From positions 62,001 through 126,000 of the forward strand of contig NZ_JAFMZK010000004.1 of the NCBI RefSeq assembly GCF_029105185.1: a stretch of DNA of 64,000 nucleotides. The letters are read 5' to 3'. The translations under genes and the position numbers were made by a program. Below are positions 47,111 through 61,335 of the stretch, piece by piece. The notes below the pieces were generated by a model. That model was not told where the DNA came from. It worked only from the letters and a program-made list of their open reading frames with translations, and searched no databases. The number at the start of each line of letters is the position of its first letter. Within the stretch, counting starts at the first letter, position 1. Source of the DNA: Aliiroseovarius sp. Z3 (GTDB lineage: Bacteria > Pseudomonadota > Alphaproteobacteria > Rhodobacterales > Rhodobacteraceae).

Positions 47111-47205
47111 TTTATCCTCCAACGCTTGGTGATCCCGGTGCGCTAGGCAAAGGGAGACTCAGTATCTTTGATCAAAAAACAGGATCGCATTTCTGGTTCT
47201 GAAAA

Positions 47206-47344: not shown

Positions 47345-47995
47345 ATGGCCGGACAAACAGAAACAGTCTTGAATGCGATCCTGTTAGGGATTGATCGTGG
47401 GGAGCTAAATCCCGGCGATCCAATCGACGAAAACGCGCTGATTGAGAAGTATGAAGTATCGCGCACCCCGCTGCGCGAGGCGTTGTTGCGATTGGCGGCG
47501 ATGGGGTTGATCCAGCGCCAGCCCCGCAAGGGCGCTGTATTGTTCAAGCCGACGCTTGAGGAGTTTCTGGCCATTCTTGAGGTTCATGCGCGGCTGGAGG
47601 GGCAGGCGGCAGGGCTTGCGGCGCGGCGCATATCTCGTCCGTCCGCTGATCGTCTGATGCAGATTGTCGAGGCCTGTGAGGCTCATGCATCTGATCAAGG
47701 GGATGGCGACCCGGATGGTTATTATGCGTTGAACCTTGAGTTCCACAAACTAGTTGGCGAAGCGTCTGGTAATCCGTTTCTTTTGGACATGATAAAGATG
47801 AACGCGCGCAAATTGCTGGCCTATTACCGCGCACGATATGCCTATCCGGGTGCAATTGCGCAAAGCGCACAGGAGCATCGGCAGATCGCCGAACTGATAT
47901 TGTCACGTAAAGCTGACGAGGCTGAAGCCCTGATGGTGCGCCATGTTCAGTTTGACCGGGTGACGGTAATGGACCTTCTGGCGGCGCTGGCCTGA
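47345..47995 (+). CDS. GntR family (FCD type) transcriptional regulator
   Basis: A 216-residue regulator with an N-terminal winged helix (residues 1-66: ETVLNAILLGIDRGELNPGDPIDENALIEKYEVSRTPLREALLRLAAMGLIQRQPRKGAVLF) and a C-terminal all-helical FCD ligand domain (HARLEGQAAGLAARRIS, LEFHKLVGEASGNPFLLDMI, EHRQIAELILSRKADEAEALMVRH). The ATG at 47345 begins the conserved part. It is convergent with the class I amidotransferase gene and adjacent to the P450/ligase cluster, whose divergent promoter it may control. Divergent from tpa. Confidence 0.88.
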   Translation: MAGQTETVLNAILLGIDRGELNPGDPIDENALIEKYEVSRTPLREALLRLAAMGLIQRQPRKGAVLFKPTLEEFLAILEVHARLEGQAAGLAARRISRPSADRLMQIVEACEAHASDQGDGDPDGYYALNLEFHKLVGEASGNPFLLDMIKMNARKLLAYYRARYAYPGAIAQSAQEHRQIAELILSRKADEAEALMVRHVQFDRVTVMDLLAALA

Positions 47996-48001
47996 TTAGC
48001 G

Positions 48002-48709
48002 TCAGGTCGCCCGCTTCTGTTCGAAAAACCTGATGATACAGTCCGAGAACAAACCGTTATCGGCGGACATCGGCAACGATGCGCGGGCTTTCGCGATTAC
48101 GTCGGCGGGTTTGCTGGACGCCAGTTCCTCGACCAGAGCGGCAATGAAATCATGGGTCATTTCCGGGTGGTTTTGCGTCGTGAAAACGTGGTTGCCGATC
48201 CGGAAACCACCGATCGGACAACCGTCGTGACGCAAGACGATTTCGGCGTCGTCGGGCAGTCTGGTCACCTGTTCAATATGCGCACCGTATTGCCAGAAAC
48301 GGCGCGCTTCCATCCAAGCCGGGCGTGCGGTCGCCTCTACTTCGACCGACCCCAAAACCCAGCCATCCGGGTTTTGACCGACCTCACCACCCAATGCCAG
48401 GGCGATGGCTTGATGGCCGAAGCAGGCGCCGAACAGCGGTTTCTTTGACGCCTCAATACGGGTGATCAGGTGCAGCAAGCGGGCAATCCACGGTGAGTCG
48501 TCATTCACGGAAGCAGGGCTGCCAGTGACGATCCAGCCATCATATTTCGACTCGTTTTTTGGAAACTCGTCATCTTTCACGGAATAGACGGTGAAGCGCC
48601 AATCCGGGCGTTTCGGGGAAAGAAGTGCCTTCCACTTGTCGCCATCTTTCGGATGTTGCTGAGAAAACTCGCTTTCATCGGTGTTTGTCATCAAGATCGC
48701 GATACGCAT
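48002..48709 (-). CDS. Class I glutamine amidotransferase-like hydrolase
   Basis: A 235-residue protein with a class I GATase fold. The catalytic triad is visible: C96 in GACFGHQAIA, H181 and E183 in QNHPEM. No synthetase domain is attached, so it should act as a hydrolase of gamma-glutamyl amides, like PuuD or the small hydrolases of aniline and alkylamine gamma-glutamylation clusters. It diverges from the P450 gene with an 87-nt AT-rich promoter region, and the P450 operon holds a GS-like ligase that could make its substrate. Confidence 0.85.
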   Translation of the reverse strand: MRIAILMTNTDESEFSQQHPKDGDKWKALLSPKRPDWRFTVYSVKDDEFPKNESKYDGWIVTGSPASVNDDSPWIARLLHLITRIEASKKPLFGACFGHQAIALALGGEVGQNPDGWVLGSVEVEATARPAWMEARRFWQYGAHIEQVTRLPDDAEIVLRHDGCPIGGFRIGNHVFTTQNHPEMTHDFIAALVEELASSKPADVIAKARASLPMSADNGLFSDCIIRFFEQKRAT

Positions 48710-48796
48710 GATTTCTCCGCTTTACATATTTAACACGTTATATAATATATTTAGGAACGCGCAAGATACAACCATATTACAATCAGGGAGGCGCGC

Positions 48797-50056
48797 ATGA
48801 CGGTCTGGACCCCTAATGACGACGGATTTGCCGATCTGTCCAGTCACGACACTTTCGTAAACGGTGCTCCGCACAACACCTTCGCACGCTTGCGTCGGGA
48901 CGATCCGGTCAGTTGGTTGGACTGGGATGGCGGTAAGGGGTTCTGGAACATCGTGCGCCATGCCGACATTTCTGAGCTGAACCGGAATTATCAGGTGATG
49001 TCCTCGGCACGTGGTATTCGGATGGAAGATCAAACCTACGAAGAATATCTTGCGCGGCGCACCTTTCAGGAGACCGACCCGCCAGAGCATATGAAAACGC
49101 GGGTGAAGGTGGGCAAAGCGTTCTCGCGCCCGGTGGTGACGGGGTTTGAGCAACAAATTCGCGATTTGTGCCACCCCATCCTTGATGCGGCGCTGGACAA
49201 GGGCACCTTCGACGCCACCAAGGAAATCGCGCGGCAATTGCCGATGATGATGCTGGGGCGGATCATCGGGACGCCTGACGAAGACCTGCCGTGGCTGGTC
49301 GAAAAGGGGGATGCCCTGATCGCAAACACAGACCCGGACTTCACCGATCACGTGTTGGACAAGATGGACACCGACGAATACCGGATGATGCCGTTCAACA
49401 GCCCGGCGGGGGCAGAGTTGTTTGACTATGCCAAGCGGCTGATTGAGGAAAAGAACCGCAAGGGCGACACGGACGGTGTGCTGCACATGATCCTGCAACC
49501 TGACAAGGACGGCAACGTGATGCCCGAGCAGGAGTTCCGCAACTTCTTTTGCCTGCTCGTGGCGGCGGGCAACGACACCACGCGCTATTCGATTGCGGCG
49601 GGTATTCAGGCCATGTGTCACCAGCCCGAGCTTCTGGGTCAGATGCAGGAGGGTGGCGACATCTGGGCCACTGCCCCTGACGAGATCATCCGCTGGGCGA
49701 CGCCCGCGCTTTATTTCCGGCGCACCGCAACCTGCGATCACGAGTTGCACGGCAAAACCATCCGCGAAGGCGACAAGGTGCTGTATTGGTGGATATCGGC
49801 CAATCGCGATGAAGAGGTGTTCGACAATCCGAACCGCGTTGACCTTAACCGCAGCCCCAACCGGCACATGTCGTTTGGGCAGGGAGGGCCGCATGTCTGT
49901 CTTGGAATGCATTTGGCGCGGTTGGAGGTGCGGGTTTTGTTTGAAGAACTCGCAAAACGCGTCAAACTGGTGGAACCGGCAGGAGAGCATAAGTTTCTGC
50001 GGTCCAACTTTGTCGGTGGCATAAAGGAATTGCCTGTCACGATGCAGGCCCAATAG
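48797..50056 (+). CDS. Cytochrome P450
   Basis: A 419-residue bacterial class I P450. The heme-ligand loop is SFGQGGPHVCLGMHLAR with C368; the I-helix oxygen motif is AAGNDTT (in LLVAAGNDTTRYSIAAG); the ExxR motif lies in DEIIRWATPALYFRR as the usual region. It needs electrons from a ferredoxin, which is encoded two genes downstream. GGGAGG lies before the ATG. First gene of P450-GS-ferredoxin-VOC, so it should oxidise the product of the GS-like ligase or its precursor; the ring or alkyl amine substrate is unknown. Confidence 0.93.
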   Translation: MTVWTPNDDGFADLSSHDTFVNGAPHNTFARLRRDDPVSWLDWDGGKGFWNIVRHADISELNRNYQVMSSARGIRMEDQTYEEYLARRTFQETDPPEHMKTRVKVGKAFSRPVVTGFEQQIRDLCHPILDAALDKGTFDATKEIARQLPMMMLGRIIGTPDEDLPWLVEKGDALIANTDPDFTDHVLDKMDTDEYRMMPFNSPAGAELFDYAKRLIEEKNRKGDTDGVLHMILQPDKDGNVMPEQEFRNFFCLLVAAGNDTTRYSIAAGIQAMCHQPELLGQMQEGGDIWATAPDEIIRWATPALYFRRTATCDHELHGKTIREGDKVLYWWISANRDEEVFDNPNRVDLNRSPNRHMSFGQGGPHVCLGMHLARLEVRVLFEELAKRVKLVEPAGEHKFLRSNFVGGIKELPVTMQAQ

Positions 50057-50102
50057 CCCGGTCAATCGGGATGGCCCGCCGAAAGTCGGGCAGGGAGGTT
50101 AG

Positions 50103-51392
50103 ATGAAAGACCGTTTGCGCGCCCTTTGGTGTGATCACTTGAGCATTTTGCGCGGCAAGTACCTGCCCAACCACAAGATCGAGGATGGAAATACTCGTTT
50201 CTGTCGGTCCACTTTCGGCGTCCACTACGACAAGGATTTGCTGGACGCTCCTGGCGCAATGATGAAGCAGGGTCTGCCGGATATGGAACTGCGCTGGCGC
50301 GAGGCGGATATTCGCGACAGTTGGGAAAGCGCGACCCAGATCGTGATCGGTGATCTTTACGATCAGGACGGCGCACCGTTGGAACTGTGCGGACGGCAGG
50401 CGTTGAAGCGCGCGATTTCGGCGTGGCAGGCGCGGGGCCTGACGCCCATGGTCGGGATCGAGCTGGAATGCTATGCGCTGATGGCCAACGAGATTGGCCG
50501 CCTTGTGCCCTATGATGCGCCGGGTGGTGTGGTCTATGGGACGGGCCCGTTTTCGGACCCGCTCCGGTTCACCGATGATATCTGGGAACGTGCGGACAAT
50601 CTGGGCTTTAAGCTGGACATGGTCACGGCGGAATACGACAGCCCGCAGTTTGAGTTTACGCTCACCTTCGACGAGGCGCTGAAGCAGCTTGATGATATTG
50701 TCCTGTTCCGTCAGATGGCACGCGAGGTCGCGTTGGAGCACGGATTGGTCCTGACCTTCATGCCCAAACCGATTGCCGAGGCGGGCGGATCGGGGATGCA
50801 TATCAACTTCAGCTTCCAGGATCAGGATGGGCGCAACGCGTTGGACAACGGTCCGGTCGGCGGGCCGGACAACATGAACGATCTGGCGCGGGGCTGTATT
50901 GCGGGGTTGATGCATCACCACAAGGGGCTGTCCGGTCTGGTGGCACCGACATCGAATTCCTATCAGCGTTTGCAGCCCGGATCGCTGTCTGGCTACTGGC
51001 GTAACTGGGGGGGCGACCACCGCAACGTCACGACGCGCATTTCAGGTGAGGGTGGCGCGAAAACCCGGCTTGAGCACCGGATGGCAGACGCCACGGCGAA
51101 CCCCTATACGGCGGTCGCGGCTGTTCTTCAGGCATCTCTTCTGGGGCTTGAGAACGAATATGCGCTTGGGCCGATGGAGACAGGCGATGGGTTTGACCGT
51201 ACGGATGCCACGGAAGGTACGGCGGTGGACCTGAAACGCGCGATGAATGATCTGGAAGCGGACCGCGTCCTGGGCGACGCAGTCGGCCGCTTGCTGGTCG
51301 ATAACCATGTTTTCATGAAGCGCAAGGAAGTCATCAAAACCCGCGATCTGGAAGGCGACGGGCTTCGGGATTTCTACGTGCATTTCGTCTAA
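50103..51392 (+). CDS. Glutamine synthetase-like gamma-glutamyl ligase
   Basis: A 429-residue GS-family protein: MVGIELECYALMANE and VTAEYDSPQFEFTLTF hold metal-binding Glu residues, FMPKPIAEAGGSGMHINFSFQD matches the GS GSGMHxHxS loop, and ISGEGGAKTRLEHRMADATANPYTAVAAVLQA is the ATP-site region. The N-terminal beta-grasp domain is short and atypical, and the late tyrosine adenylylation segment of GlnA is absent. It most likely ligates glutamate to an amine other than ammonia (as PuuA, GMAS and IpuC do). 46 nt after the P450 gene. Confidence 0.88.
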   Translation: MKDRLRALWCDHLSILRGKYLPNHKIEDGNTRFCRSTFGVHYDKDLLDAPGAMMKQGLPDMELRWREADIRDSWESATQIVIGDLYDQDGAPLELCGRQALKRAISAWQARGLTPMVGIELECYALMANEIGRLVPYDAPGGVVYGTGPFSDPLRFTDDIWERADNLGFKLDMVTAEYDSPQFEFTLTFDEALKQLDDIVLFRQMAREVALEHGLVLTFMPKPIAEAGGSGMHINFSFQDQDGRNALDNGPVGGPDNMNDLARGCIAGLMHHHKGLSGLVAPTSNSYQRLQPGSLSGYWRNWGGDHRNVTTRISGEGGAKTRLEHRMADATANPYTAVAAVLQASLLGLENEYALGPMETGDGFDRTDATEGTAVDLKRAMNDLEADRVLGDAVGRLLVDNHVFMKRKEVIKTRDLEGDGLRDFYVHFV

Positions 51393-51419
51393 CCGGCGGA
51401 AAGAAAAAGGAGAAAAGAT

Positions 51420-51737
51420 ATGAAAGTGACCTGGGTCTTGCCTGGGGGCGAGGAAGTTGTGGCTGACGTCAAGGAAGGCGTGAACATGATGGAAGCCGCC
51501 GTTGCCAACAATGTCGCCGGTATTCAGGGCGAATGTGGTGGGTCGTTGTCCTGTGCCACCTGCCACGTGCATGTTGACGGTGATTGGCTGGAGAAAACTG
51601 GGGAAAAGGGCGATTTCGAAGAGGCGATGCTGGACATGGCCGATGGCGAAGTCACCGGGGCGTCGCGTTTGTCCTGCCAGATCACAGCGTCAAATGAACT
51701 GGATGGAATTAGGTTGATGGTACCCGAGGCGTTCTGA
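51420..51737 (+). CDS. [2Fe-2S] ferredoxin (adrenodoxin type)
   Basis: A 105-residue plant/vertebrate-type ferredoxin. The cluster ligands are C39, C45, C48 and C86 (GECGGSLSCATCHVHV and RLSCQITA), the CX5CX2CX37C spacing of adrenodoxin/putidaredoxin. It should carry electrons from a reductase (not found here) to the P450 two genes upstream. AAGGAG precedes the start; 27 nt after the ligase gene. Confidence 0.93.
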   Translation: MKVTWVLPGGEEVVADVKEGVNMMEAAVANNVAGIQGECGGSLSCATCHVHVDGDWLEKTGEKGDFEEAMLDMADGEVTGASRLSCQITASNELDGIRLMVPEAF

Positions 51738-51785
51738 CCGCGCTGGTCTGTGATACACTGCATTGACACAACGGAGGATCACATC

Positions 51786-52154
51786 ATGCAACTTGGCGCA
51801 TTTTCAGTCAGTCTGGGGGTCAAAGACCTGTCAAAATCCCGCGCGTTTTACGAGACGCTGGGATTTACCACCTATGCCGGGACGGAAGAACATAACTACC
51901 TGATCATGAAAAACGGCGACATGCTGGTGGGGCTGTTTCAGGGGATGTTCGAAGGCACGATGCTGACCTTCAACCCGGGTTGGGATCAGTCCGCGCAGAA
52001 TGTTGACCCGTTCGAAGATGCGCGGCAGATCAAGGAACGGCTGAAAGCCGCGGGGCTGGAGATCACGCAAGAACAGGGGGGTGATGACGGACCGGCCAGC
52101 TTTGTGGTTGTTGACCCGGATGGTGTGCCGATTCTGATTGACCAGCACCGTTAA
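51786..52154 (+). CDS. VOC superfamily protein (glyoxalase/bleomycin-resistance fold)
   Basis: A 122-residue vicinal-oxygen-chelate protein: MQLGAFSVSLGVKDLSKSRAFYETLGF, YLIMKNGDMLVGLFQGMFEGTMLTFNPGWDQ and a C-terminal ASFVVVDPDGVPILIDQHR strand. It is last in the P450 operon, 48 nt after the ferredoxin, and followed by a terminator. VOC proteins of this size are dioxygenases, lyases or binding proteins; a role in the P450 pathway is inferred from position. The ATG at 51786 begins the conserved part. Confidence 0.85.
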   Translation: MQLGAFSVSLGVKDLSKSRAFYETLGFTTYAGTEEHNYLIMKNGDMLVGLFQGMFEGTMLTFNPGWDQSAQNVDPFEDARQIKERLKAAGLEITQEQGGDDGPASFVVVDPDGVPILIDQHR

Positions 52155-52156
52155 GC

Positions 52157-52186
52157 AAAAGCCGCCCGGACGGGGCGGCTTTCCAT
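52157..52186. terminator. Bidirectional terminator
   Basis: AAAGCCGCCC / GGGGCGGCTTT with a short GGAC-type loop lies directly after the VOC gene stop, before the convergent aminotransferase gene ending at 52204. A and T runs flank it on both strands. Confidence 0.85.
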
Positions 52187-52203
52187 CTTTTGCCTGACCG
52201 CGA

Positions 52204-53556
52204 TCAGACCGCGGCCAATCCGGCTTTCAACGCGTCAACGATGGTGGTGACGTCATCCGTCGTCAAAACAAGGGGCGGCGACAGAATGATGTTGGGTCCA
52301 GAGACACGCACCATCGCACCGTTTTGGTAGGCGACCTCTTGAATGGTGCCGATGCTCTTCTTGTCGATCGGCGTTTTCGTGGCTGGGTCCGACACAAGTT
52401 CCATGGCGCACATCAGCCCGTGGCCACCGCGCACGTCCCCGATGATGTCATGGGCCGCGCCGATCTCTTGCAACCCGGCAAACAATTCGGCCCCGCGCGC
52501 GGCGGCGTTTTCGTTGACCTTCAGGCGCAGGGTTTCCCCAAGGCAGGCGATGGCGGCAGCGGCGCCAACGGGGTGACCCGAATAGGTGTAGCCGTGACCA
52601 ATGGCGGCTTTGCCCGTCGTGTCGGCTTCGAAGGTTTCGACCACGTGATCGGCGATCATCACAGCACCGAAGGGGAAATATCCGTTGGTAATAGCCTTGG
52701 CGGTGCACATGAAATCGGGCTGGACACTCCAGTAGCGGCTTCCGCTCCACCCGCCGGTGCGGCCGAAGGCGGTGATGACTTCGTCCGCGATCAACAGGAT
52801 GCCGTGGCGCGAACAGATCTCGCGCACGCCCGGCATGAAGCTTTCATGGGGTGGGATGACACCACCGGCCCCAAGAATCGGTTCCATGATGAAGGCGGCG
52901 ATGGTGTTTGCGCCTTGGAATGCGATCTCGTCTTCCATCGCTTGCAGGCACAGCTGGGCCAGGCGCTCGGGGTCGGTTTCGTTGAACGGGTTGCGATAGG
53001 TATAGGGCGCCGGGATGTGGAAGCAGCCGGGCAGAAGTGGCTCGTACTGGGTGCGGAAATTGGCGTTTCCGTTCACCGAGGCCCCGCCCATATGTGTGCC
53101 GTGATAGCCTTTTTTCAGGCTCAGAAACTTGGTGCGCCCTGTGTCGCCCTTCACCTTGTGATACTGGCGCGCAAGGCGCAGAGCGGTTTCGACGCTGTCC
53201 GACCCGCCCGAGGTGTAAAACGCGCGGGTCAGCCCGTCGGGCGCAAAAAACTCGCGCAGCATTTCGGACAGCTCGATCACCTTGTCATTCGTCGTGCCGC
53301 GGAAAGTTGAGTAGTAGGGCAGCTGGTCAAGCTGTGCTGCAATCGCATCTTTGATGGGCTGGCAGGAAAACCCAAGGTTGACGTTCCAAAGGCCACCGAC
53401 ACCATCGACCACCTCGTGACCGTCGACATCCGTGATCCGAACCCCCTGCGCCCCGGTGACGATGGTGGGCGGATTGGCCAGACTGTCCGCCGGATGCGCC
53501 ATGGGATGCCAAAGCGATCGGGCGTTCTTTTCTTTCAGAAAGTTGGAGTCTTTCAT
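52204..53556 (-). CDS. Class III aminotransferase (SpuC-like, omega-amine:pyruvate type)
   Basis: A 450-residue aminotransferase with the PLP-Lys segment MCTAKAITNGYFPFGAVM, ILLIADEVITAFGRTGGWSGSRYW and RAFYTSGGSDSVETALRLARQYH, plus KFLSLKKGYHGTHMGGASVNG, the pattern of putrescine/cadaverine:pyruvate and omega-amino-acid aminotransferases. It starts 1 nt after the IclR gene ends, on the same strand, so the regulator and enzyme are co-transcribed. It is also convergent with the P450 operon and may share an amine substrate with it. Confidence 0.88.
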   Translation of the reverse strand: MKDSNFLKEKNARSLWHPMAHPADSLANPPTIVTGAQGVRITDVDGHEVVDGVGGLWNVNLGFSCQPIKDAIAAQLDQLPYYSTFRGTTNDKVIELSEMLREFFAPDGLTRAFYTSGGSDSVETALRLARQYHKVKGDTGRTKFLSLKKGYHGTHMGGASVNGNANFRTQYEPLLPGCFHIPAPYTYRNPFNETDPERLAQLCLQAMEDEIAFQGANTIAAFIMEPILGAGGVIPPHESFMPGVREICSRHGILLIADEVITAFGRTGGWSGSRYWSVQPDFMCTAKAITNGYFPFGAVMIADHVVETFEADTTGKAAIGHGYTYSGHPVGAAAAIACLGETLRLKVNENAAARGAELFAGLQEIGAAHDIIGDVRGGHGLMCAMELVSDPATKTPIDKKSIGTIQEVAYQNGAMVRVSGPNIILSPPLVLTTDDVTTIVDALKAGLAAV

Positions 53557-53557
53557 T

Positions 53558-54358
53558 TCAAGCCTCTCTCAGTAGCGAGTTTTGCGGTTCGTAGGGGGGA
53601 AAGCCATCGGGTGGAAAACCACCAAGAATGCGGGTTGTCTGACGCGCGTGGATCATCAGTTTGTCGCAAATATCCTGACGTAGCTCGTCGGTCATGCGCG
53701 ATACGGGTGCGGCAACGGCCATGGCGCCGATGCACGCCGAACGTGCATCAAAAATTGGCACGGCATAAGAAATCACGTCTTCTTCGAACCCGCCTGTCGA
53801 GGTTGCCATCCCCCGCTTGCGGATGGCTGGCAGCAGCGCGCGAATTTCAGCAGGATCTGTGAGTGTCTTCGAAGTCCGGGCGATCAATGGGCGCGACAGG
53901 GTTTCATTCACGAAACGCGTTGGCGAAAAGGCCAGTACGGCCAGCCCTGAGCCGGTGGAATGAAGCTCCAGAACTTCGGCATCTTCCATCATCACCATCG
54001 TGCCGTGGCGGTTGGAATAGGCATAGGCAAGGTTGGACAGGACATCACCGTTTAGCAGCGACATATGGGCGGTCTCTCCGGTCTTGGTGCTGAGTTCAGT
54101 GAGTTGTTGCAGGGCAACTTCGCGCATTGGAACCTGCTTTTCTCGTAATGCAGCAAGGCGCAGAAAGGCCGGACCCAGACGATATTCACGCCCGGCCCCG
54201 ACTTGTTCGACGAATCCATGTGACGTGAGTTCGGCAAGCAAACGATGCACCGTGGCCTTGTTCAACCCCGACAGGCGCGCCAATTCGCTCAGCCCGATCT
54301 GCGGGGTGGCGCGGCTGAAATGATTCAGCAATGACAGTGCTTTAGAGGTTGTTCCCAT
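53558..54358 (-). CDS. IclR family transcriptional regulator
   Basis: A 266-residue IclR regulator: a winged helix (TTSKALSLLNHFSRATPQIGLSELARLSGLNKATVHRLLAELTSHGFVEQ) and a GAF-like effector domain with SYAVPIFDARSACIGAMAVAAPVSRM. The ATG at 54358 begins the conserved part. It is transcribed divergently from the TctCBA-aldehyde dehydrogenase genes across a 169-nt gap holding two dyads, so it likely controls both directions. Confidence 0.9.
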   Translation of the reverse strand: MGTTSKALSLLNHFSRATPQIGLSELARLSGLNKATVHRLLAELTSHGFVEQVGAGREYRLGPAFLRLAALREKQVPMREVALQQLTELSTKTGETAHMSLLNGDVLSNLAYAYSNRHGTMVMMEDAEVLELHSTGSGLAVLAFSPTRFVNETLSRPLIARTSKTLTDPAEIRALLPAIRKRGMATSTGGFEEDVISYAVPIFDARSACIGAMAVAAPVSRMTDELRQDICDKLMIHARQTTRILGGFPPDGFPPYEPQNSLLREA

Positions 54359-54432
54359 CGGTGATCCCAAATTATTGCGAGGCGGAGGTGAAGGCGCAGC
54401 CCGCAAAATTACTTCGCATGTTCATTGTTTTC

Positions 54433-54527: not shown

Positions 54528-55469
54528 ATGAACACCAAGACCATTATCGCAGGGGCGGTTGCGCTGACTGCCGCAGCGCTTGCTGGCCCGGCGCTGGCTG
54601 AATACCCGGAAAAACCTGTCAGTTTCATCGTGCCATGGCCTCCGGGCGATCTGGAAGATGTGCTGACACGGATGATTGCCGAGGACTTTCAAACCGAATA
54701 CGGCGTATCTGCCGCTGTGGTGAACAAGCCCGGCGGTGGCGGTGGGCCGTTCCCCGGTGCGATCGACGTGGCAACCGCGCCCGCCGACGGTTACACTATC
54801 GGTAGCTTCGTGCCCGCCGTGCCTGTGATCGGTCACGAGATCGGCATTGACGAGCTGTCGCCTGCCAAGTTCGACCCGATCGGCATTTTCCTGACCTATC
54901 CGTTTGTCATCGCGACCGGCAAGGATGCGCCCTATAGCTCGATGGAAGAGCTTGCCGCCTATGCCAAGGAAAATGATGTTGCATTGGGCCATTTCGGCGA
55001 TGTGCTGACGCCCACACAGGTGACGAAAGCCTATGCAATCAATGCCGGTTTCAGTTGGGGGTCGGATGCGGCATTCGATGCGCTGGATTGCAACACGCTT
55101 GCCTCGGGGGACGCGGATGTCATCAACACCACGTTGCAGTTGATCCTGCCCTGCCTTGACAGTGTTAAGGTGTTGATGGCCGTCACCGACGAGCGGATCA
55201 GCCTGATCCCAGACGTGCCGACCATCGGTGAGCTGGATGAAGACCTGAACATCGCGCTTTGGAACGGGCTTTTCGTAACCAAGGACACGCCGGCGGATGT
55301 GCGCGAGAAGATCGCGGCAGTTGCCTCGAAAACCGTGATGAGCGAACGCGCACAGGCTGTTGCCAAGGAAACCGGCGCTTTGGTCTATTGGATGGATGCA
55401 GAGGCGTCAGCCGCCCGTATTGCCACGGATCAAGAAACCGGCGCACGGATCGGCAAGATCCTGGAGTAA
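54528..55469 (+). CDS. tctC: Tripartite tricarboxylate transporter substrate-binding protein
   Basis: A 313-residue periplasmic binding protein. Signal peptide to about ALA/EYPEKP (residue 24). Family landmarks: VSFIVPWPPGDLEDVLTRMIAEDF and VVNKPGGGGGPFPGAIDVATAPADGYTIG, the TctC carboxylate-binding loop, though the usual GGxTD is replaced by PPGDLED. GGGAG lies before the ATG. First gene of tctC-tctB-tctA. The cargo is a carboxylate that the following aldehyde dehydrogenase may hint at, but which one is not visible. Confidence 0.9.
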   Translation: MNTKTIIAGAVALTAAALAGPALAEYPEKPVSFIVPWPPGDLEDVLTRMIAEDFQTEYGVSAAVVNKPGGGGGPFPGAIDVATAPADGYTIGSFVPAVPVIGHEIGIDELSPAKFDPIGIFLTYPFVIATGKDAPYSSMEELAAYAKENDVALGHFGDVLTPTQVTKAYAINAGFSWGSDAAFDALDCNTLASGDADVINTTLQLILPCLDSVKVLMAVTDERISLIPDVPTIGELDEDLNIALWNGLFVTKDTPADVREKIAAVASKTVMSERAQAVAKETGALVYWMDAEASAARIATDQETGARIGKILE

Positions 55470-55524
55470 TGCAAACGGAGCAGGGCTGGCACAGTCCGGC
55501 CCTGTGGTTTTGTTGGGGGCGGGC

Positions 55525-56214
55525 ATGAGCGACGAAATCTCAGAACATCCGGATCGTCCACAACGTGGGCAGGTGTTGTTTGCTGCGTTGTTTCTGATCT
55601 GTGCGACGCTGTTGATTGCCGCGTTGGGGGATCAAACCAAGTGGCTGAAGGGTAAAGAGTTTTTCGCTCAGCCACGGTTCTGGCCCGCGATTGGCGTGGG
55701 TGGTATGGTGATCTTCTCAGCTTTGCATTTCTGGCATTTGCCCCGCAAACCCCGCCGCCTTCCGCGCTGGATGCGCGAAGCGGACTGGTTGCAGTGGGCC
55801 GAAAGCCTGTTTTGGGCGGTTTTGGCCATCGTTCTGTCCCTTTGGCTGGGCCCGATCGCCGCCGCGCCAATCGTGTTCCTTGTGGCGACCATTCGGGTGA
55901 CATGGTTGTACCAACATTGGACAGATCGGCGTGAAGCCAAGATCTGGGCGTCGATCTTTGAATGGGCTGCCTGGTTTCTGGCCTATGTTCTTTTGGTCCC
56001 GATCATCGGGTATCTTCCTGTCACCGTGGCCTTCACTGTGCTTTTGACATGGCGGGTGGGCTATCGCGACCGCATCATGACGATAAGCGCGGTTTTGTTC
56101 GCGATTGCCGTCGTGGTGGTGTTCAAGAGCTTCTTGCAGGTCAAAATACCGGGCGCAGCTCTCTACGAATATCTGCCCGGCGCCCTGCGCTCGTTTTTCA
56201 TCCTGAACTTCTGA
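55525..56214 (+). CDS. tctB: Tripartite tricarboxylate transporter small permease
   Basis: A 229-residue membrane protein of the TctB type with four or five hydrophobic helices (GQVLFAALFLICATLLIAALG, FWPAIGVGGMVIFSALHFW, AESLFWAVLAIVLSLWLGPIAAAPIVFLVATIRVTWL, WAAWFLAYVLLVPIIGYLPVTVAFTVLL). It is longer than many TctB proteins (about 150-180). The ATG at 55525 is used because the open frame before it overlaps tctC. It sits between tctC and tctA. Confidence 0.85.
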   Translation: MSDEISEHPDRPQRGQVLFAALFLICATLLIAALGDQTKWLKGKEFFAQPRFWPAIGVGGMVIFSALHFWHLPRKPRRLPRWMREADWLQWAESLFWAVLAIVLSLWLGPIAAAPIVFLVATIRVTWLYQHWTDRREAKIWASIFEWAAWFLAYVLLVPIIGYLPVTVAFTVLLTWRVGYRDRIMTISAVLFAIAVVVVFKSFLQVKIPGAALYEYLPGALRSFFILNF

Positions 56215-56221
56215 GGGGCCA

Positions 56222-57862
56222 ATGGACCTGATTTTTGATTTTCTTGCACAGGTTCAGGCCAGTTCGAACTACCTGGCGCGATGGGACGTCGTTCTGGCGC
56301 TTCTGGTGGGGTCGATGGGCGGCGTGATCATCGGGGCAATCCCGGGTGTGGGACCAGCGGTGGCCATCGCCATCCTGCTGCCCGCCACGTTCTCGATGGA
56401 CCCGATTGTCGGTCTGACGGTGCTTTTGGGAATATACGGAAGCTCGATGTATGGTGGGTCGATACCAGCGATCCTGATCAACACGCCGGGCACTGCTGTC
56501 AATGCGCTGACCACCTATGACGGCTATCCAATGACCACGCGGGGCGAGGCGCGGCGCGCTTTGTCGCTGGCTTACAGTTCGTCGTTTTTTGGCGGTTTGT
56601 TTTCGGTGATGTGCCTGATCTTCTTTGCGCCTGTGCTGGCCAAAGTGGCCCCGATGTTCGGTAGTCGAGAGATCTTTCTGGCGGCCCTGTTGGGGATCAT
56701 CCTTGTGGTGACGGCCCATCGCAAACACACGTTGATTGCCGCTGCCATGGCGTGTTTCGGCATCTGGCTGAACACGATCGGGCTTCACTCTGCCAGCTAT
56801 TCAAAACGCTATACCTTTGACCAAAGCTGGTTGTCTGGGGGCGTGAACCTGATTGTGGTCGTGTTGGGGCTGTTTGCGCTCAGCCAGGCGTTTACGCTGT
56901 TACACGGGGACGACGAAAAGGTGCGCCTGACACGGTTGAAAGGCAGCTTCTTTCAGGGGTTCCGCGAACTTGCGCGCCATCCTCGCATCGCGGGTGTGTC
57001 CGCGTCATTCGGGGTTGTTATGGGCATGATCCCGGGCGTGGGAGAGTTTACAGCGCAGTTCATGTCTTACACCTACGCGCAGAAATCCTCGAAACGGCCC
57101 GAGGATTTCGGGCATGGCTCAAGCGAGGGTTTGATCGCGGCGGAAACCGCCAACAACGCGGTGCCTGCGGCAGCGATGGTGCCGCTGCTTGCACTGGGTA
57201 TCCCCGGCGAGGCGCTGACCGCGATGATGCTGTCTGTCTTTTACGTTCATAATGTCATCCCCGGCCCCCAGCTTTTCCAGAATGACATGGATTTTGTCGT
57301 GGCGTTGTATCTGGCGCTGCTGGTCCTGAATGTTCTGGTCGTGGTTTTCTTGTTGGTTGCGACCAACCAGTTGATCAAGGTGGTGAAAATCCCTAACCGG
57401 TTCCTAGGCGTCTGCATCCTGATCCTCAGCTTCGTGGGGGTCTATAGCCTGCGCAACTCGCTGACCGACTGCATCATTGCCGCCGGTTTCGGCATCTTCG
57501 GCTTCATCATGAAACGCATGCAGCTGCCCGTCGTGCCCATCGTGCTGGGCATGGTTCTGGGCGGCATCATGGAGGTCAAACTGCGCAGCGCAATGGCGCG
57601 CGTGAAATCCCCCCTGGACTTTGTTGATCGCCCTGTCGCGGCGATCCTGTTTGGAATGATCGTTCTGGTTCTGGCCCTGCATTTCCGCCGGGTCTGGCTG
57701 GACTATAAGGAAAGAAAGAAAGACGAATGGCAGATCAGTCACGCATCAACGAGCTTTCCCGCCATCCTGTCGCGCCGCAGAAACTTTATATTGACGGAGC
57801 GTGGCAAGACGCTGAGGGCGAAGCGCAAGACGTTCTCTCGCCGATTGACGGACAAAGACTGA
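56222..57862 (+). CDS. tctA: Tripartite tricarboxylate transporter large permease
   Basis: A 546-residue, about 12-helix membrane protein. Characteristic TctA motifs are GAIPGVGPAVAIAILLP, YGSSMYGGSIPAILINTPGT, GMIPGVGEFTAQFMSYTYAQK and ALGIPGEALTAMMLSVFYVHNVIPGP. The normal family end would be near residue 502 (KERKKDEW); here the frame runs on for 45 residues, overlapping the aldehyde dehydrogenase gene by 136 nt. It imports the carboxylate bound by TctC using the ion gradient. Confidence 0.9.
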   Translation: MDLIFDFLAQVQASSNYLARWDVVLALLVGSMGGVIIGAIPGVGPAVAIAILLPATFSMDPIVGLTVLLGIYGSSMYGGSIPAILINTPGTAVNALTTYDGYPMTTRGEARRALSLAYSSSFFGGLFSVMCLIFFAPVLAKVAPMFGSREIFLAALLGIILVVTAHRKHTLIAAAMACFGIWLNTIGLHSASYSKRYTFDQSWLSGGVNLIVVVLGLFALSQAFTLLHGDDEKVRLTRLKGSFFQGFRELARHPRIAGVSASFGVVMGMIPGVGEFTAQFMSYTYAQKSSKRPEDFGHGSSEGLIAAETANNAVPAAAMVPLLALGIPGEALTAMMLSVFYVHNVIPGPQLFQNDMDFVVALYLALLVLNVLVVVFLLVATNQLIKVVKIPNRFLGVCILILSFVGVYSLRNSLTDCIIAAGFGIFGFIMKRMQLPVVPIVLGMVLGGIMEVKLRSAMARVKSPLDFVDRPVAAILFGMIVLVLALHFRRVWLDYKERKKDEWQISHASTSFPAILSRRRNFILTERGKTLRAKRKTFSRRLTDKD

Positions 57863-59211
57863 CCACGATTGCGCGCGCTTCCGCGGCAGATGTGGACCGG
57901 GCCGTTGCGGCGGCCCGGCGGGCGTTTGACGACGGGCGCTGGTCGCGGGCAGACCCCGCGCATCGCAAGAAGATCCTGCACAAGCTGGCGGATTTGATCG
58001 AGGCGAACGCGCTGGAGCTGGCGGTTCTGGGCGTGCGCGACAACGGGACCGAGATCGGCATGGCCCTGAAGGCCGAGCCGGGATCGGCGGCGGGCACGTT
58101 TCGCTACTATGCCGAGGCGCTGGATAAGGTTTACGGCGAGATCGCCCCGACAGCGCCGGGTATCCTGGGGCTGGTCCACAAGGAGCCTGTGGGCGTGGTG
58201 GGCGCAATCGTGCCGTGGAACTTCCCCTTGATGATTGGTGCGTGGAAACTGGCACCTGCCTTGGCGGCGGGCAATTCGGTTGTCTTGAAGCCCGCCGAAA
58301 CCGCATCCCTGACCCTGTTGCGGCTTGCTGAACTGGCCACAGAGGCCGGGTTGCCGGATGGCGTCTTGAACGTCGTAACCGGCGCAGGATCGGTCACCGG
58401 CGAAGCCCTGGCCATGTCGATGGATGTGGATGTTCTGGTCTTCACGGGCTCGGGTGGGGTGGGACGCAGGCTTCTGGAATACTCGGCGCGGTCAAACCTG
58501 AAACGCTGCTATCTGGAGCTTGGGGGCAAGTCGCCCAACGTGGTCTTTGCCGATGCGCCGGATCTGGAACAGGCGGCGAAGGTGTCGGCCGCTGGCATTT
58601 TTCGCAACGCAGGCCAGGTCTGTGTGGCCGGGTCGCGATTGTTGGTGGAAAAGGCCGTGCATGACGAGTTTGTCGAGGCATTGTCGCGTCATGCCGCCGC
58701 GATGAAAGTGGGCGATCCGTTGGACCTGAGCACCAATATCGGGGCGGTGAACAACATTCCGCAGCTTGAGGGCAACCTGGGTTTCGTCGCCCGCGCAGTC
58801 GAGGAAGGAGCCACACTGGCCCTTGGCGGGTCGCGTATTCTGGAAGACACCGGTGGATATTATATGGAGCCGACGGTGCTGACTGGTGTGACCCCTAAGG
58901 ATCATGTGGCCCAGAACGAGGTGTTCGGGCCAGTGCTGGCCGTGACCTCCTTCACGTCGGATGAAGAAGCAGTGCAGATCGCCAATTCTACAAAATTTGG
59001 TTTGGCAGCAGGGGTTTGGACGTCGAACCTAAGCCGTGCGCACAGGGTGGTGCGTGATATTCAGGCAGGTGTCGTACACGTGAACACATATGGTGGCCCG
59101 GATGGCACGGTGCCGTTGGGCGGCGTCAAGCAATCGGGCAACGGTCATGACAAGTCGATGCACGCTTTCGACAAGTATTTCGACCTCAAGACAGCATGGA
59201 TGCAGCTATGA
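57727..59211 (+). CDS. NAD(P)+-dependent aldehyde dehydrogenase
   Basis: A 494-residue aldehyde dehydrogenase. It shows LYIDGAWQDAEGEAQDVLSPIDG, the cofactor-binding VVGAIVPWNFPLMIGAWKLAPALAAGNSVVLKPAE, GSGGVGRRLLEYSA, LELGGKSPNVVFADAPD and catalytic Cys in RNAGQVCVAGSRLLVEKAVHDEF. AAGGAAAG-type ribosome site before the ATG. It should oxidise an aldehyde arising from the substrate of the TctCBA system. Its stop overlaps the next start (ATGA). Confidence 0.92.
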   Translation: MADQSRINELSRHPVAPQKLYIDGAWQDAEGEAQDVLSPIDGQRLTTIARASAADVDRAVAAARRAFDDGRWSRADPAHRKKILHKLADLIEANALELAVLGVRDNGTEIGMALKAEPGSAAGTFRYYAEALDKVYGEIAPTAPGILGLVHKEPVGVVGAIVPWNFPLMIGAWKLAPALAAGNSVVLKPAETASLTLLRLAELATEAGLPDGVLNVVTGAGSVTGEALAMSMDVDVLVFTGSGGVGRRLLEYSARSNLKRCYLELGGKSPNVVFADAPDLEQAAKVSAAGIFRNAGQVCVAGSRLLVEKAVHDEFVEALSRHAAAMKVGDPLDLSTNIGAVNNIPQLEGNLGFVARAVEEGATLALGGSRILEDTGGYYMEPTVLTGVTPKDHVAQNEVFGPVLAVTSFTSDEEAVQIANSTKFGLAAGVWTSNLSRAHRVVRDIQAGVVHVNTYGGPDGTVPLGGVKQSGNGHDKSMHAFDKYFDLKTAWMQL

Positions 59212-60440
59212 GCGATAAGGTAATTCTGGTCGTCGGCACCTATGACACCAAAGATGACGAACTGAACTATATCGCCGATGTGATCCGGGCGCAGGGTGGT
59301 GGCGTGGCCACGATGGACATCTCGGTTCTGGGGGATCCAAGCGCGCCGTGCGACTATACCAAACACGATGTGGCCGAGGCCGGAGGGTCGTCCATCCAAG
59401 CCGCCATCGACAGCGGGGACGAGAACACGGCCATGCAGATCATGGCCCAAGGCTCTGCCGCATTGGCGTTGAAACTCTATCGCGAAGGCCTGTTTGACGG
59501 GTTGATTGTTCTGGGTGGAACGATGGGCACCGACGCCGCGCTGGACCTGTGTCAGGCGCTGCCGATTGGGGTGCCGAAATACGTCGTGTCTACGGTCAGC
59601 TTCTCACCCTTGATCCCGCCTGAACGTCTGCCTGCCGATGTGCAGATGATCCTCTGGGCCGGGGGGCTCTACGGGCTGAACTCGATCTGCAAAGCGTCGC
59701 TGTCACAAGCCGCTGGTGCCGTGCTGGGTGCAGCCCGTGCGGTCGAAAAACCGGACTTCCAAAAACCACTCATCGGCATGACCAGCTTCGGAAAAACGGT
59801 TCTGCGCTACATGGTCAGCCTGAAACCAGCGCTGGAAGAACGTGGGTTCGAGGTTGCGGTGTTTCACGCAACTGGCATGGGAGGGCGCGCCTTTGAATGC
59901 CTGGCGGGTGAGGGCGCTTTTGCCGCCGTTCTGGACTTCGCCCCGCAGGAACTTGGCAACCACATCATGGGATCGACAATTTCTGCGGGGGCGGACCGGA
60001 TGACCAATGCGGGCGCCTCCGCCACTCCGCAGATGGTGTCCATTGGCTGTTATGACCTGGTGGATTTCATCGGCTGGCAGGACGTGCCGCCGAAACTGGC
60101 AGGCCAAGAGGTGCATGCGCATAACCGCCTGCTATCCTCGGTGATGATGACCCCCGACCAGCGGCGCGAAATGGCGCGGGCCATATGCACGCAGCTGGCC
60201 GGCGCGAAAGGCCCGGTGAACCTGATCCTGCCGCTTGAGGGTGGCAATGAATGGGACCGTCCCGGTGGGCCTTTGCACGACGCCGAGGGACTTGCCGCCT
60301 TTATCGACGAACTCCGCGTCCGTTGCCCCGACAACGTGACCCTGATCGAACTAGACAGCCATATCAACGACGCGGCGTTCTCGGACCGGGTGCTGGCGGA
60401 GTTTGACGCATGGGTCGCCGCGGGCGTGATCACCCCCTGA
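59208..60440 (+). CDS. Tm-1-like ATP-binding domain protein (UPF0261)
   Basis: A 410-residue Tm-1-like protein (named after the tomato antiviral protein domain). Landmarks: VILVVGTYDTKDDELNYIADVIRAQG, LIVLGGTMGTDAALDLCQALPIGVPKYVVSTVSFSPL, MTSFGKTVLRYMVSLKPALEERGFEVAVFHATGMGGRAFE and GAKGPVNLILPLEGGNEWDRPGGPLHD. The ATG at 59208 overlaps the aldehyde dehydrogenase stop. Usually a PEP-hydrolase-like partner gene lies beside it; none is here. The function in bacteria is not established; position suggests a role in the same catabolic route. Confidence 0.85.
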   Translation: MSDKVILVVGTYDTKDDELNYIADVIRAQGGGVATMDISVLGDPSAPCDYTKHDVAEAGGSSIQAAIDSGDENTAMQIMAQGSAALALKLYREGLFDGLIVLGGTMGTDAALDLCQALPIGVPKYVVSTVSFSPLIPPERLPADVQMILWAGGLYGLNSICKASLSQAAGAVLGAARAVEKPDFQKPLIGMTSFGKTVLRYMVSLKPALEERGFEVAVFHATGMGGRAFECLAGEGAFAAVLDFAPQELGNHIMGSTISAGADRMTNAGASATPQMVSIGCYDLVDFIGWQDVPPKLAGQEVHAHNRLLSSVMMTPDQRREMARAICTQLAGAKGPVNLILPLEGGNEWDRPGGPLHDAEGLAAFIDELRVRCPDNVTLIELDSHINDAAFSDRVLAEFDAWVAAGVITP

Positions 60441-60514
60441 GACAACTTGTTGCACCTGCAATGATTTGCAATTTCCGAAAGACAGGTATTTATTACCAGT
60501 GTTAAGGAGTGAAC

Positions 60515-60913
60515 ATGCCACACCTGTCTTTCGAGTTTAGCTACGGGTTGGGCCAGCAGGCAGACCTGCGGGCCTTGACCGAGACCATGCGTGCCGCATT
60601 GGCTGCAACCGGGCATTGTCCCGTGGGCGGCATCCGCGTGCGCGGGTTCGAGGCTGACATCGACGCCATTGGCGACGGGGCGGGCGGGTATCACTTCCTT
60701 GATATGATCCTGAGGCTTGGGCAGGGTCGGGACGAGGTGACGCGCGACGCCATCGCCGACCAACTTTACGGCGCAGTTGAGGCTGCCCTACGCCCGCAAA
60801 TGGGGGGCACCCCCTTCATTCTCAGCCTTGAGGTTCAGGAAATCGAAACCCGTTTCAGCCGTAAAAGCTGGAGCACGATCCACGCGGCACTCCGCGAAAA
60901 GGAACCGGAATGA
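60515..60913 (+). CDS. 5-carboxymethyl-2-hydroxymuconate isomerase-like protein
   Basis: A 132-residue tautomerase-superfamily protein of the CHMI type. It starts with MPHLSFEFSYGL so Pro 2 is the predicted catalytic N-terminal proline, followed by ATGHCPVGGIRVRGFEADIDAIGDGAGGYHFLDMILRLGQGRDEVTRDAIADQLYGAVEAAL. AAGGAG and a 5-nt spacer precede the ATG at 60515; the upstream in-frame GTG is not used because it would bury Pro. Overlaps the HpaR-type gene by 4 nt. Other hpa genes are not in the window. Confidence 0.88.
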   Translation: MPHLSFEFSYGLGQQADLRALTETMRAALAATGHCPVGGIRVRGFEADIDAIGDGAGGYHFLDMILRLGQGRDEVTRDAIADQLYGAVEAALRPQMGGTPFILSLEVQEIETRFSRKSWSTIHAALREKEPE

Positions 60914-61335
60914 GAAAACTTGAACGCGCGCTTCCCATCGCGCTGCTTCACGCGCGCGAAGCCACGCTGAAACCCTTTCGCCACGAACTGGATCAGATTG
61001 ACCTGACCGTTCAGCAGTGGCGCGTTATCCGTGTGTTGGCCGAGGGGAAACCCTGCTGCGCCACGGAACTGGCCGAACGCTGCGTGCTTATGCCGCCCAG
61101 CCTGAGCCGCATCCTGAAAAACCTGACGGAACGCGAGCTGATCGAACGCGTGGACGACAATGATGGTCGCCGCCGCAAGGTGCAGATCGCGCCCGCAGGC
61201 TGTGCGAAGTACACGCAGATGTCTGGCAAGGCGGCGAAGATTTATGAAGATCTTGAAACCCGCTTCGGGCACGAGAAGATGGAAACACTTCTGGACCTTT
61301 TGAACGAGCTTTACGCGGTCGCGGGGGCGGACTGA
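60910..61335 (+). CDS. HpaR-like MarR family regulator
   Basis: A 141-residue winged-helix regulator: MRKLERALPIALLHAREATLKPFRHELDQIDLTVQQWRVIRVLAEG, CATELAERCVLMPPSLSRILKNLTERELIERVDDNDGRRRKVQIAPAG. It begins inside the last codons of the CHMI-type isomerase gene, so the two are translationally coupled, which matches the HpaR role in homoprotocatechuate degradation. The rest of that pathway must lie elsewhere. The second paralogue in the window is at 32319. Confidence 0.9.
   Translation: MRKLERALPIALLHAREATLKPFRHELDQIDLTVQQWRVIRVLAEGKPCCATELAERCVLMPPSLSRILKNLTERELIERVDDNDGRRRKVQIAPAGCAKYTQMSGKAAKIYEDLETRFGHEKMETLLDLLNELYAVAGAD

Follow-up and report, generated by a model that had tools for sequence, protein, structure and literature searches.

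The window analysed here, the whole 64,000-nucleotide stretch of the Aliiroseovarius sp. Z3 contig NZ_JAFMZK010000004.1 (positions 62,001 to 126,000), encodes a cytochrome P450, a glutamine synthetase (GS)-like ligase and a [2Fe-2S] ferredoxin beside a class I glutamine amidotransferase (GATase)-like enzyme. This combination raises the question of which amine is glutamylated, oxidised and released again, and which pathway receives the product. Judged by sequence, the module is predicted to be a variant of the gamma-glutamylated-amine P450 pathway for tyramine or a close relative, feeding homoprotocatechuate (HPC). The module is very probably of the gamma-glutamyl amine P450 kind, and its family probably feeds the HPC pathway; tyramine, with hydroxylation of its ring, is the preferred substrate at a probability of roughly 0.55.

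Identity of the module enzymes

The GS-like ligase (50103..51392, forward strand; Pfam Gln-synt_C, 2.1e-72) scored under the cut-off of all five NCBIfam models that it matched, including those of GlnA, GlnII, the PuuA-type gamma-glutamylputrescine synthetase and type III. Against the GlnA model TIGR00653 it reached 168.8 bits, the cut-off being 429, and four further GS-family matches were present in the window's genome, including a clear GlnA that scored 641 bits. In an alignment with this GlnA, read by eye, the ligase displayed a gap at the FDGSS loop and GSLSG in place of GFEAP, the two GlnA motifs which presumably hold the ammonia-site Asp and Glu residues (positions as in Salmonella GS). 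An ordinary ammonia-dependent GlnA was ruled out by the low score, the separate genomic GlnA and the two missing motifs; as far as the sequence tells, the ligase is not the plain GlnA that a preliminary description of the interval 47345-53556 had allowed for. Ten residues that we take to be catalytic (E120, E122, E177, E184, H233, R289, R307, R312, E324 and R326) were invariant in 28 aligned orthologues and common to the GlnA of the same genome. As these residues are kept and the two GlnA motifs are missing, the enzyme is predicted to be a gamma-glutamyl organic amine ligase (GoaS). GoaS enzymes are, in the source text available, characterised by an extra N-terminal '15th motif'. The ligase was 95-96% identical at four loci, three in Aliiroseovarius and one in a metagenome-assembled genome (MAG).

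The GATase-like enzyme (48002..48709, reverse strand; Pfam GATase, 3.1e-16) has the triad C96/H181/E183, named correctly in the preliminary description: the C was found in 28 of 28 aligned GATases and both H and E in 27 of 28, L069 having a gap there. Its best match in the PDB was gamma-glutamyl peptidase 1 (6.5e-18), presumably a plant enzyme, and a putative gamma-glutamyl-amide hydrolase is proposed. The P450 (48797..50056, forward strand; Pfam p450) has an ordinary oxygen-activation motif, AGNDTT, and an intact heme-Cys motif, and its best PDB matches were CYP125MRCA, CYP268A2 and CYP124A1. The ferredoxin (51420..51737, forward strand; Pfam Fer2) is the proposed electron donor of the P450. 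No ferredoxin reductase was found among the module genes of the window, and none was sought outside the module. The gaps between the genes of the P450, the ligase, the ferredoxin and a small VOC protein are 46, 27 and 48 bp.

The genes, families and positions of the preliminary description all corresponded to open reading frames, and its logic of glutamylation, oxidation and deglutamylation holds by sequence, given a ligase other than GlnA, a GATase resembling gamma-glutamyl peptidase and the linkage of both to a P450 and a ferredoxin.

Conservation of the neighbourhood

The surroundings of the ligase were compared at 55 loci from other genomes, one of them that of Ruegeria sp. TM1040, with a neighbour criterion of 40% identity over half coverage. 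Fourteen of these loci belong to the group of the window's genus (12 Aliiroseovarius and two MAGs at 95% and 90%), and a few are contig ends of 3-5 kb. Genes close to the ligase encoded the GATase in 52 loci, the P450 in 51, the ferredoxin in 37, a GntR regulator and TctA each in 36, the class III omega-aminotransferase AT2 in 35, TctC in 34, an IclR regulator in 33, a PuuC-like aldehyde dehydrogenase in 30 and a UPF0261 protein in 26. Since the P450 and the GATase accompany the ligase in 51 and 52 of 55 loci, respectively, the gene arrangement is not due to chance; the separation of ligase and P450 in other genomes, which the preliminary description had considered, was not what the comparison of neighbourhoods revealed.

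The conserved unit continues through the IclR, TctCBA, aldehyde dehydrogenase, UPF0261, CHMI-family (5-carboxymethyl-2-hydroxymuconate isomerase) and HpaR genes to about position 61335. The genes of the interval described previously are real, and the interval was drawn too short. AT2 (52204..53556, reverse strand; PRK07481 at 737 bits, cut-off 575; best PDB match the omega transaminase 5lh9) had correctly been placed at its edge, where it was regarded as a flank only; its conservation with the module, and its place in the same gene run at L112, a locus of the phylum sample from another class (G615), show it to be more than that. The order at L112 was GATase-P450-GS-ferredoxin-aldehyde dehydrogenase-AT2-UPF0261, all on one strand, and Ruegeria loci such as L073 displayed TctC-TctA-P450-GS-GATase-IclR-AT2 on a single strand.

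Two Ruegeria loci departed from the common layout. In L069 of Ruegeria profundi the ligase, AT2, the transporter and hpa genes were retained along with a GATase match, but a P450 match was detected neither in its customary position nor anywhere else at this locus. In Ruegeria sp. TM1040 (L089, 16430-17176) an FkbM methyltransferase gene occupied the usual ferredoxin position.

Linkage to homoprotocatechuate genes

The last two genes of the conserved unit, about 7 kb past the interval of the preliminary description, point to the HPC (hpa) pathway. The CHMI-family gene (60509..60913, forward strand) matched Pfam CHMI above the cut-off (9.4e-28) and the NCBIfam equivalog at 57 bits, under its cut-off of 215, and the gene following it (60910..61335, forward strand) encodes HpaR, the regulator of the homoprotocatechuate operon (TIGR02337, 127.3 bits, above the cut-off of 121.2).

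In relatives, hpa equivalogs above the NCBIfam cut-off were located less than 10 kb from the ligase: HpaD_Fe (448 bits, cut-off 316), HpaE (762, cut-off 638), HpaH (380, cut-off 351.5), HpaR (121.9, cut-off 121.2) and the VOC-type HpaD (410, cut-off 321). A CHMI protein was also encoded beside the module, and the HpaI and HpaG relatives found there missed their cut-offs. A pyridoxal phosphate (PLP) aromatic amino acid decarboxylase, with DOPA decarboxylase 7xin as its best PDB match, adjoined the module in 6 of the 55 named loci and in 8 of 38 further ligase-centred stretches. Much of the hpa pathway stood on the strand of the ligase in L123 and L124, and the former carried HpaH-HpaG-aromatic amino acid decarboxylase-VOC-type HpaD-HpaE-CHMI-GS-P450-GATase-TctC-TctA on one strand; its GATase, only 31% identical, passes a laxer criterion and not the 40% one. 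Of the 55 named loci, 24 had one or more hpa or decarboxylase genes; 13 of these 24 belong to the group of the window's genus and have CHMI and/or HpaR only. Such genes were found beside the ligase in 15 of the 38 further stretches, compared to 0 of 20 arbitrary 20-kb stretches from ligase-bearing genomes; the 38 leave out L116 and L117, short contigs and 2 of a set of 20.

These linked genes indicate a phenethylamine-type amine that feeds the HPC pathway. Of the two kinds of amine suggested by the preliminary description, the aromatic one thus agrees with the linkage and the osmolyte-derived one does not.

Genome-wide association of ligase and hpa genes

The association was also assessed in 394 genomes of the window's family (393 genera) with E-value limits of 1e-80 for HpaH, 1e-60 for HpaD, 1e-20 for HpaB and 1e-90 for the ligase; some of the sampled genomes are probably of the same species as named loci. 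The ligase was present in 72 genomes, in 61 at 59% identity or more and in 11 only at 43-51%. HpaH was detected in 146 (129 over the family cut-off and 17 under it), the LigB HpaD in 44 and HpaB in 40.

HpaH was found in 67 of the 72 ligase genomes and in 79 of the 322 others (Fisher p 2e-28). Counting only HpaH above the cut-off, the numbers were 61/72 and 68/322 (p 3e-24), and for the 61 genomes with close orthologues of the ligase they were 56/61 compared to 90/333. The LigB HpaD was also enriched (25/72 and 19/322, p 7e-10), and HpaB was not (10/72 and 30/322, p 0.28). Within the HpaH genomes, the link between the ligase and the LigB HpaD was non-significant (25/67 and 19/79, p 0.10). A match to HpaB was missing in 57 of the 67 genomes with both ligase and HpaH. 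Among HPC genomes, however, HpaB is uncommon to a similar degree whether or not the ligase is present. The statistics thus give no clean sign that the P450 replaces HpaB, and the absence of HpaB as proof of the model was rejected on this ground.

Comparison with known systems

Among the closest described systems is the Ipu cluster of Arthrobacter aurescens TC1, in which, according to the available text of PMC6776027, IpuC makes gamma-glutamyl-isopropylamide from isopropylamine, a multicomponent cytochrome P450 then hydroxylates it, and the release of L-alaninol by an amidotransferase is postulated. In the pTC1 record, ipuC adjoins genes for a GATase, a P450, a ferredoxin and a ferredoxin reductase. 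The preliminary description had held a P450 fed by a local ferredoxin to be undescribed in this chemistry, and this part does not stand. The Ipu system and the window share a ligase, P450, ferredoxin and GATase that are encoded together with the same proposed logic. However, the window proteins are only 29% (ligase), 26% (P450) and 30% (GATase) identical to those of TC1, they stand apart from them in FastTree trees and are not orthologues. The window module has no gene for a reductase, and it has AT2, the transporter, the aldehyde dehydrogenase and hpa genes in place of the TC1 neighbours.

Compared by their descriptions, as far as the available texts go, the aniline and 1-naphthylamine pathways (AtdA1/NpaA1) also join a GoaS ligase and a GATase-like enzyme on a catechol-type route from an aromatic amine, but use a Rieske-type dioxygenase where the window has a P450. 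With the pathway for 4-hydroxyphenylacetate and HPC the window shares hpaR and a CHMI gene, and hpaD, E, G, H and I accompany the module in relatives; the entry proposed here is a glutamylated amine and a P450, as opposed to free 4-hydroxyphenylacetate and HpaBC. The Puu pathway for putrescine consists of glutamylation, oxidation, the aldehyde dehydrogenase PuuC and hydrolysis. Similar steps with a PuuC-like dehydrogenase are proposed for the window module, but the oxidant is another and both the ligase and the dehydrogenase score far below the cut-offs of gamma-glutamylputrescine synthetase and PuuC. What is new is the context of the module, which in relatives is accompanied by genes for Hpa ring cleavage and for an aromatic amino acid decarboxylase, the set of ligase, P450, ferredoxin and GATase being known already. 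Titles and abstract openings among the literature matches listed contained no route via glutamylated tyramine or dopamine in bacterial catabolism, which is weak evidence of absence.

Proposed route and alternatives

The favoured route may be depicted as follows. An aromatic L-amino acid decarboxylase would convert tyrosine to tyramine (step 0); its gene adjoins the module in several relatives and is located at another place in the genome of the window (G000). The ligase would with ATP join glutamate to tyramine (step 1), and the P450 would with electrons from the ferredoxin hydroxylate the ring of gamma-glutamyl-tyramine to gamma-glutamyl-dopamine (step 2), as a counterpart of the action of HpaBC on 4-hydroxyphenylacetate. 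The GATase-like hydrolase may release dopamine and glutamate (step 3), AT2 may transaminate the freed dopamine to the aldehyde (step 4), and the PuuC-like aldehyde dehydrogenase (57727..59211, forward strand; best model PuuC at 560 bits, under the cut-off of 850) may oxidise the aldehyde to homoprotocatechuate (step 5), the ring of which would be cleaved by Hpa enzymes (step 6). The glutamyl tag would position the substrate for the P450 and protect the catecholamine from cyclising and oxidising. We infer every reaction, the identity of the amine and the carbon that is oxidised; what was observed is which genes are present, which residues are conserved, and how the genes are linked and associated across genomes. 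As a lead only, the available text of PMC4148982 reports that tyramine is respired by Phaeobacter inhibens DSM 17395 and not by P. gallaeciensis CIP 105210T.

Several observations weigh against this route or against parts of it. No hpa or decarboxylase gene was present within the flank of 31 of the 55 loci, and the hpa probes were picked after loci carrying them had been seen, from the same set. Of 20 ligase genomes selected for the purpose, 19 (among them G000) had the decarboxylase, which counts in favour of the route, but this count had no ligase-negative control. The Fisher p-values ignore phylogeny, and HpaB is not significantly rarer in the HPC genomes bearing the ligase (10/67) than in the other HPC genomes (16/79, p 0.52). 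G000 had neither HpaH nor the VOC-type HpaD at E 0.001, no relative of HpaD_Fe at 1e-60 and no HpaE over the cut-off, and its sole LigB match was DOPA-dioxygenase-like at 149.9 bits, under the cut-off of 233. Finally, tripartite tricarboxylate transporters (TTT), one of which is encoded in the conserved unit, typically carry carboxylates and tyramine has no carboxylate, and the linked decarboxylase is no less similar to a DOPA decarboxylase than to a tyrosine decarboxylase.

The last two points suit a route in which tyrosine itself is glutamylated, the P450 forms gamma-glutamyl-DOPA, and released DOPA is decarboxylated to dopamine for the same Hpa pathway: the co-conserved transporter suits the import of an acid, and the best solved match of the L073 decarboxylase was DOPA decarboxylase (2.5e-112), ahead of tyrosine decarboxylase (9e-94). 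Such PDB matches cannot separate the two kinds of decarboxylase, however, and the GoaS ligases for aniline, chloroaniline, 1-naphthylamine, isopropylamine and putrescine take simple amines, as far as the available descriptions go, so that tyrosine is an unlikely substrate. Slightly less likely still is a methoxylated or unhydroxylated phenethylamine (3-methoxytyramine, phenethylamine) which the P450 would O-demethylate or hydroxylate to the catechol. This would draw on the same genomic evidence and needs only a product that reaches the HPC pathway, but the adjacent aromatic amino acid decarboxylase indicates tyrosine or DOPA as the source.

The absence of detected HpaD and HpaH in the window's genome may also be taken to mean that the hpa neighbours are incidental, and that the module, with the four-part set and the logic of the TC1 Ipu cluster, serves a small aliphatic amine of the isopropylamine type. 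The low identity to the TC1 proteins, the association with HpaH and the repeated hpa adjacency in several lineages speak against this reading, which we regard as improbable. Detoxification or nitrogen scavenging, in which genomes like the window's would tag a catecholamine or free its nitrogen with no ring cleavage, would account for a genome that holds the upper genes, HpaR and the CHMI-family gene with HpaD and HpaH undetected. Its probability is equally low, as a genome of the same genus (G373) has HpaH above the cut-off (385 bits) and a 43% relative of HpaD, and loss in one lineage is therefore the simpler explanation. Tyramine as the substrate, with hydroxylation of its ring, is kept as the preferred reading.

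For G000 the full route is nevertheless not claimed, since HpaH and HpaD were undetected; there it either stops at an earlier step or relies on enzymes that were not recognised. Steps 0 to 5 have candidate genes, among them a decarboxylase gene at C6:210946-212331 (56% identity), and none was found for ring cleavage. HpaB was also not detected at 1e-20, the best HpaG relative was 33% identical, and G000 belongs to the five genomes that carry the ligase but no HpaH. The lower pathway seems to have been lost in the window's lineage, or to be carried out by other proteins.

If true, the route would be another entry to the HPC pathway in marine bacteria, with a catechol-forming P450 that acts on a protected, glutamate-tagged biogenic amine, and glutamylation chemistry, described for aniline and isopropylamine, would come to include amines of the neurotransmitter type. 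It would also help to explain the 57 of 67 genomes with ligase and HpaH in which the flavin hydroxylase HpaB was not detected.

Related modules beyond the family

The ligase was found at 1e-70 in 5 of 398 genomes of the phylum sample, including two from the genus of the window. On a Streptomyces canus plasmid a ligase-P450 pair was present at 31% and 40% identity, and beside it on the opposite strand were genes for a ferredoxin, an acetoacetate decarboxylase-family protein, an HpaE-like aldehyde dehydrogenase (under cut-off), a LigB dioxygenase and an FAH protein. Novosphingobium EMRT-2 and the genome G401 have a similar gene set, and the hpa link thus recurs in looser form on the Novosphingobium and Streptomyces plasmids. 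The LigB proteins of Streptomyces, Novosphingobium, G401 and G682 (L113) matched only HpaD_Fe, at 127-142 bits and under the cut-off of 316. No relative of the GATase or AT2 was found by tblastn at E 0.001 in the stretches of the Novosphingobium, Streptomyces and G401 type (L090, L091 and L111), and L113 displayed only weak relatives of them (25% and 30%).

The acetoacetate decarboxylase-family gene occurred with LigB, FAH and aldehyde dehydrogenase genes beside the ligase-P450 pair in all three lineages L090, L091 and L111, and this set is possibly an undescribed branch of meta-cleavage. Two solutions of one pathway might exist: the Roseobacter type would remove the tag before ring cleavage, with the GATase, AT2 and a true HpaD, and the Novosphingobium, Streptomyces and G401 type would cleave the ring of gamma-glutamyl-dopamine and keep the glutamate handle through meta-cleavage. 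This division is doubtful, and we know of no parallel to tagged aromatic catabolism through meta-cleavage. A more distant ligase-GATase-P450 run (P450 39%) was located on a Sagittula stellata plasmid (L092, 7920-11227) beside a gene cluster for aromatic acids, and probably acts on a different substrate.

Other genes around the module

The module is preceded by the gene of the GntR/FCD regulator (47345..47995, forward strand; Pfam GntR and FCD). The IclR regulator (53558..54406, reverse strand; Pfam IclR_C and HTH_IclR) had its top NCBIfam score with the PcaR/PcaU/PobR subfamily model at 123.5 bits, under the cut-off of 284.75. It is followed by the TctC-TctB-TctA transporter genes (54528..57862, forward strand), in which TctC matches solved TTT binding proteins; the naming is backed by annotated TTT subunits at the orthologous TM1040 locus, and TctB was assigned by position only. 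The UPF0261 (Tm-1-like) protein (59196..60440, forward strand) has both the N and C domains of the Pfam family.

The single-domain VOC protein (51786..52154, forward strand; Pfam Glyoxalase) was found beside the module in 12 of 55 loci, and a second class III aminotransferase, AT1 (45713-47122, upstream of the module), in 13 of 55. Both are considered to be outside the core, since neither adjoins the module outside the Aliiroseovarius group. A role of the VOC protein as an extradiol dioxygenase with a single domain, by analogy with the lincomycin L-DOPA dioxygenase, was considered and not adopted; the family match is weak (1.4e-6). G005 has an 82% relative of AT1 that is not located beside the module (control stretch L150). 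A regulator of the MocR/PdxR type, named by eye from its sequence, is encoded further upstream at 43064-44542.

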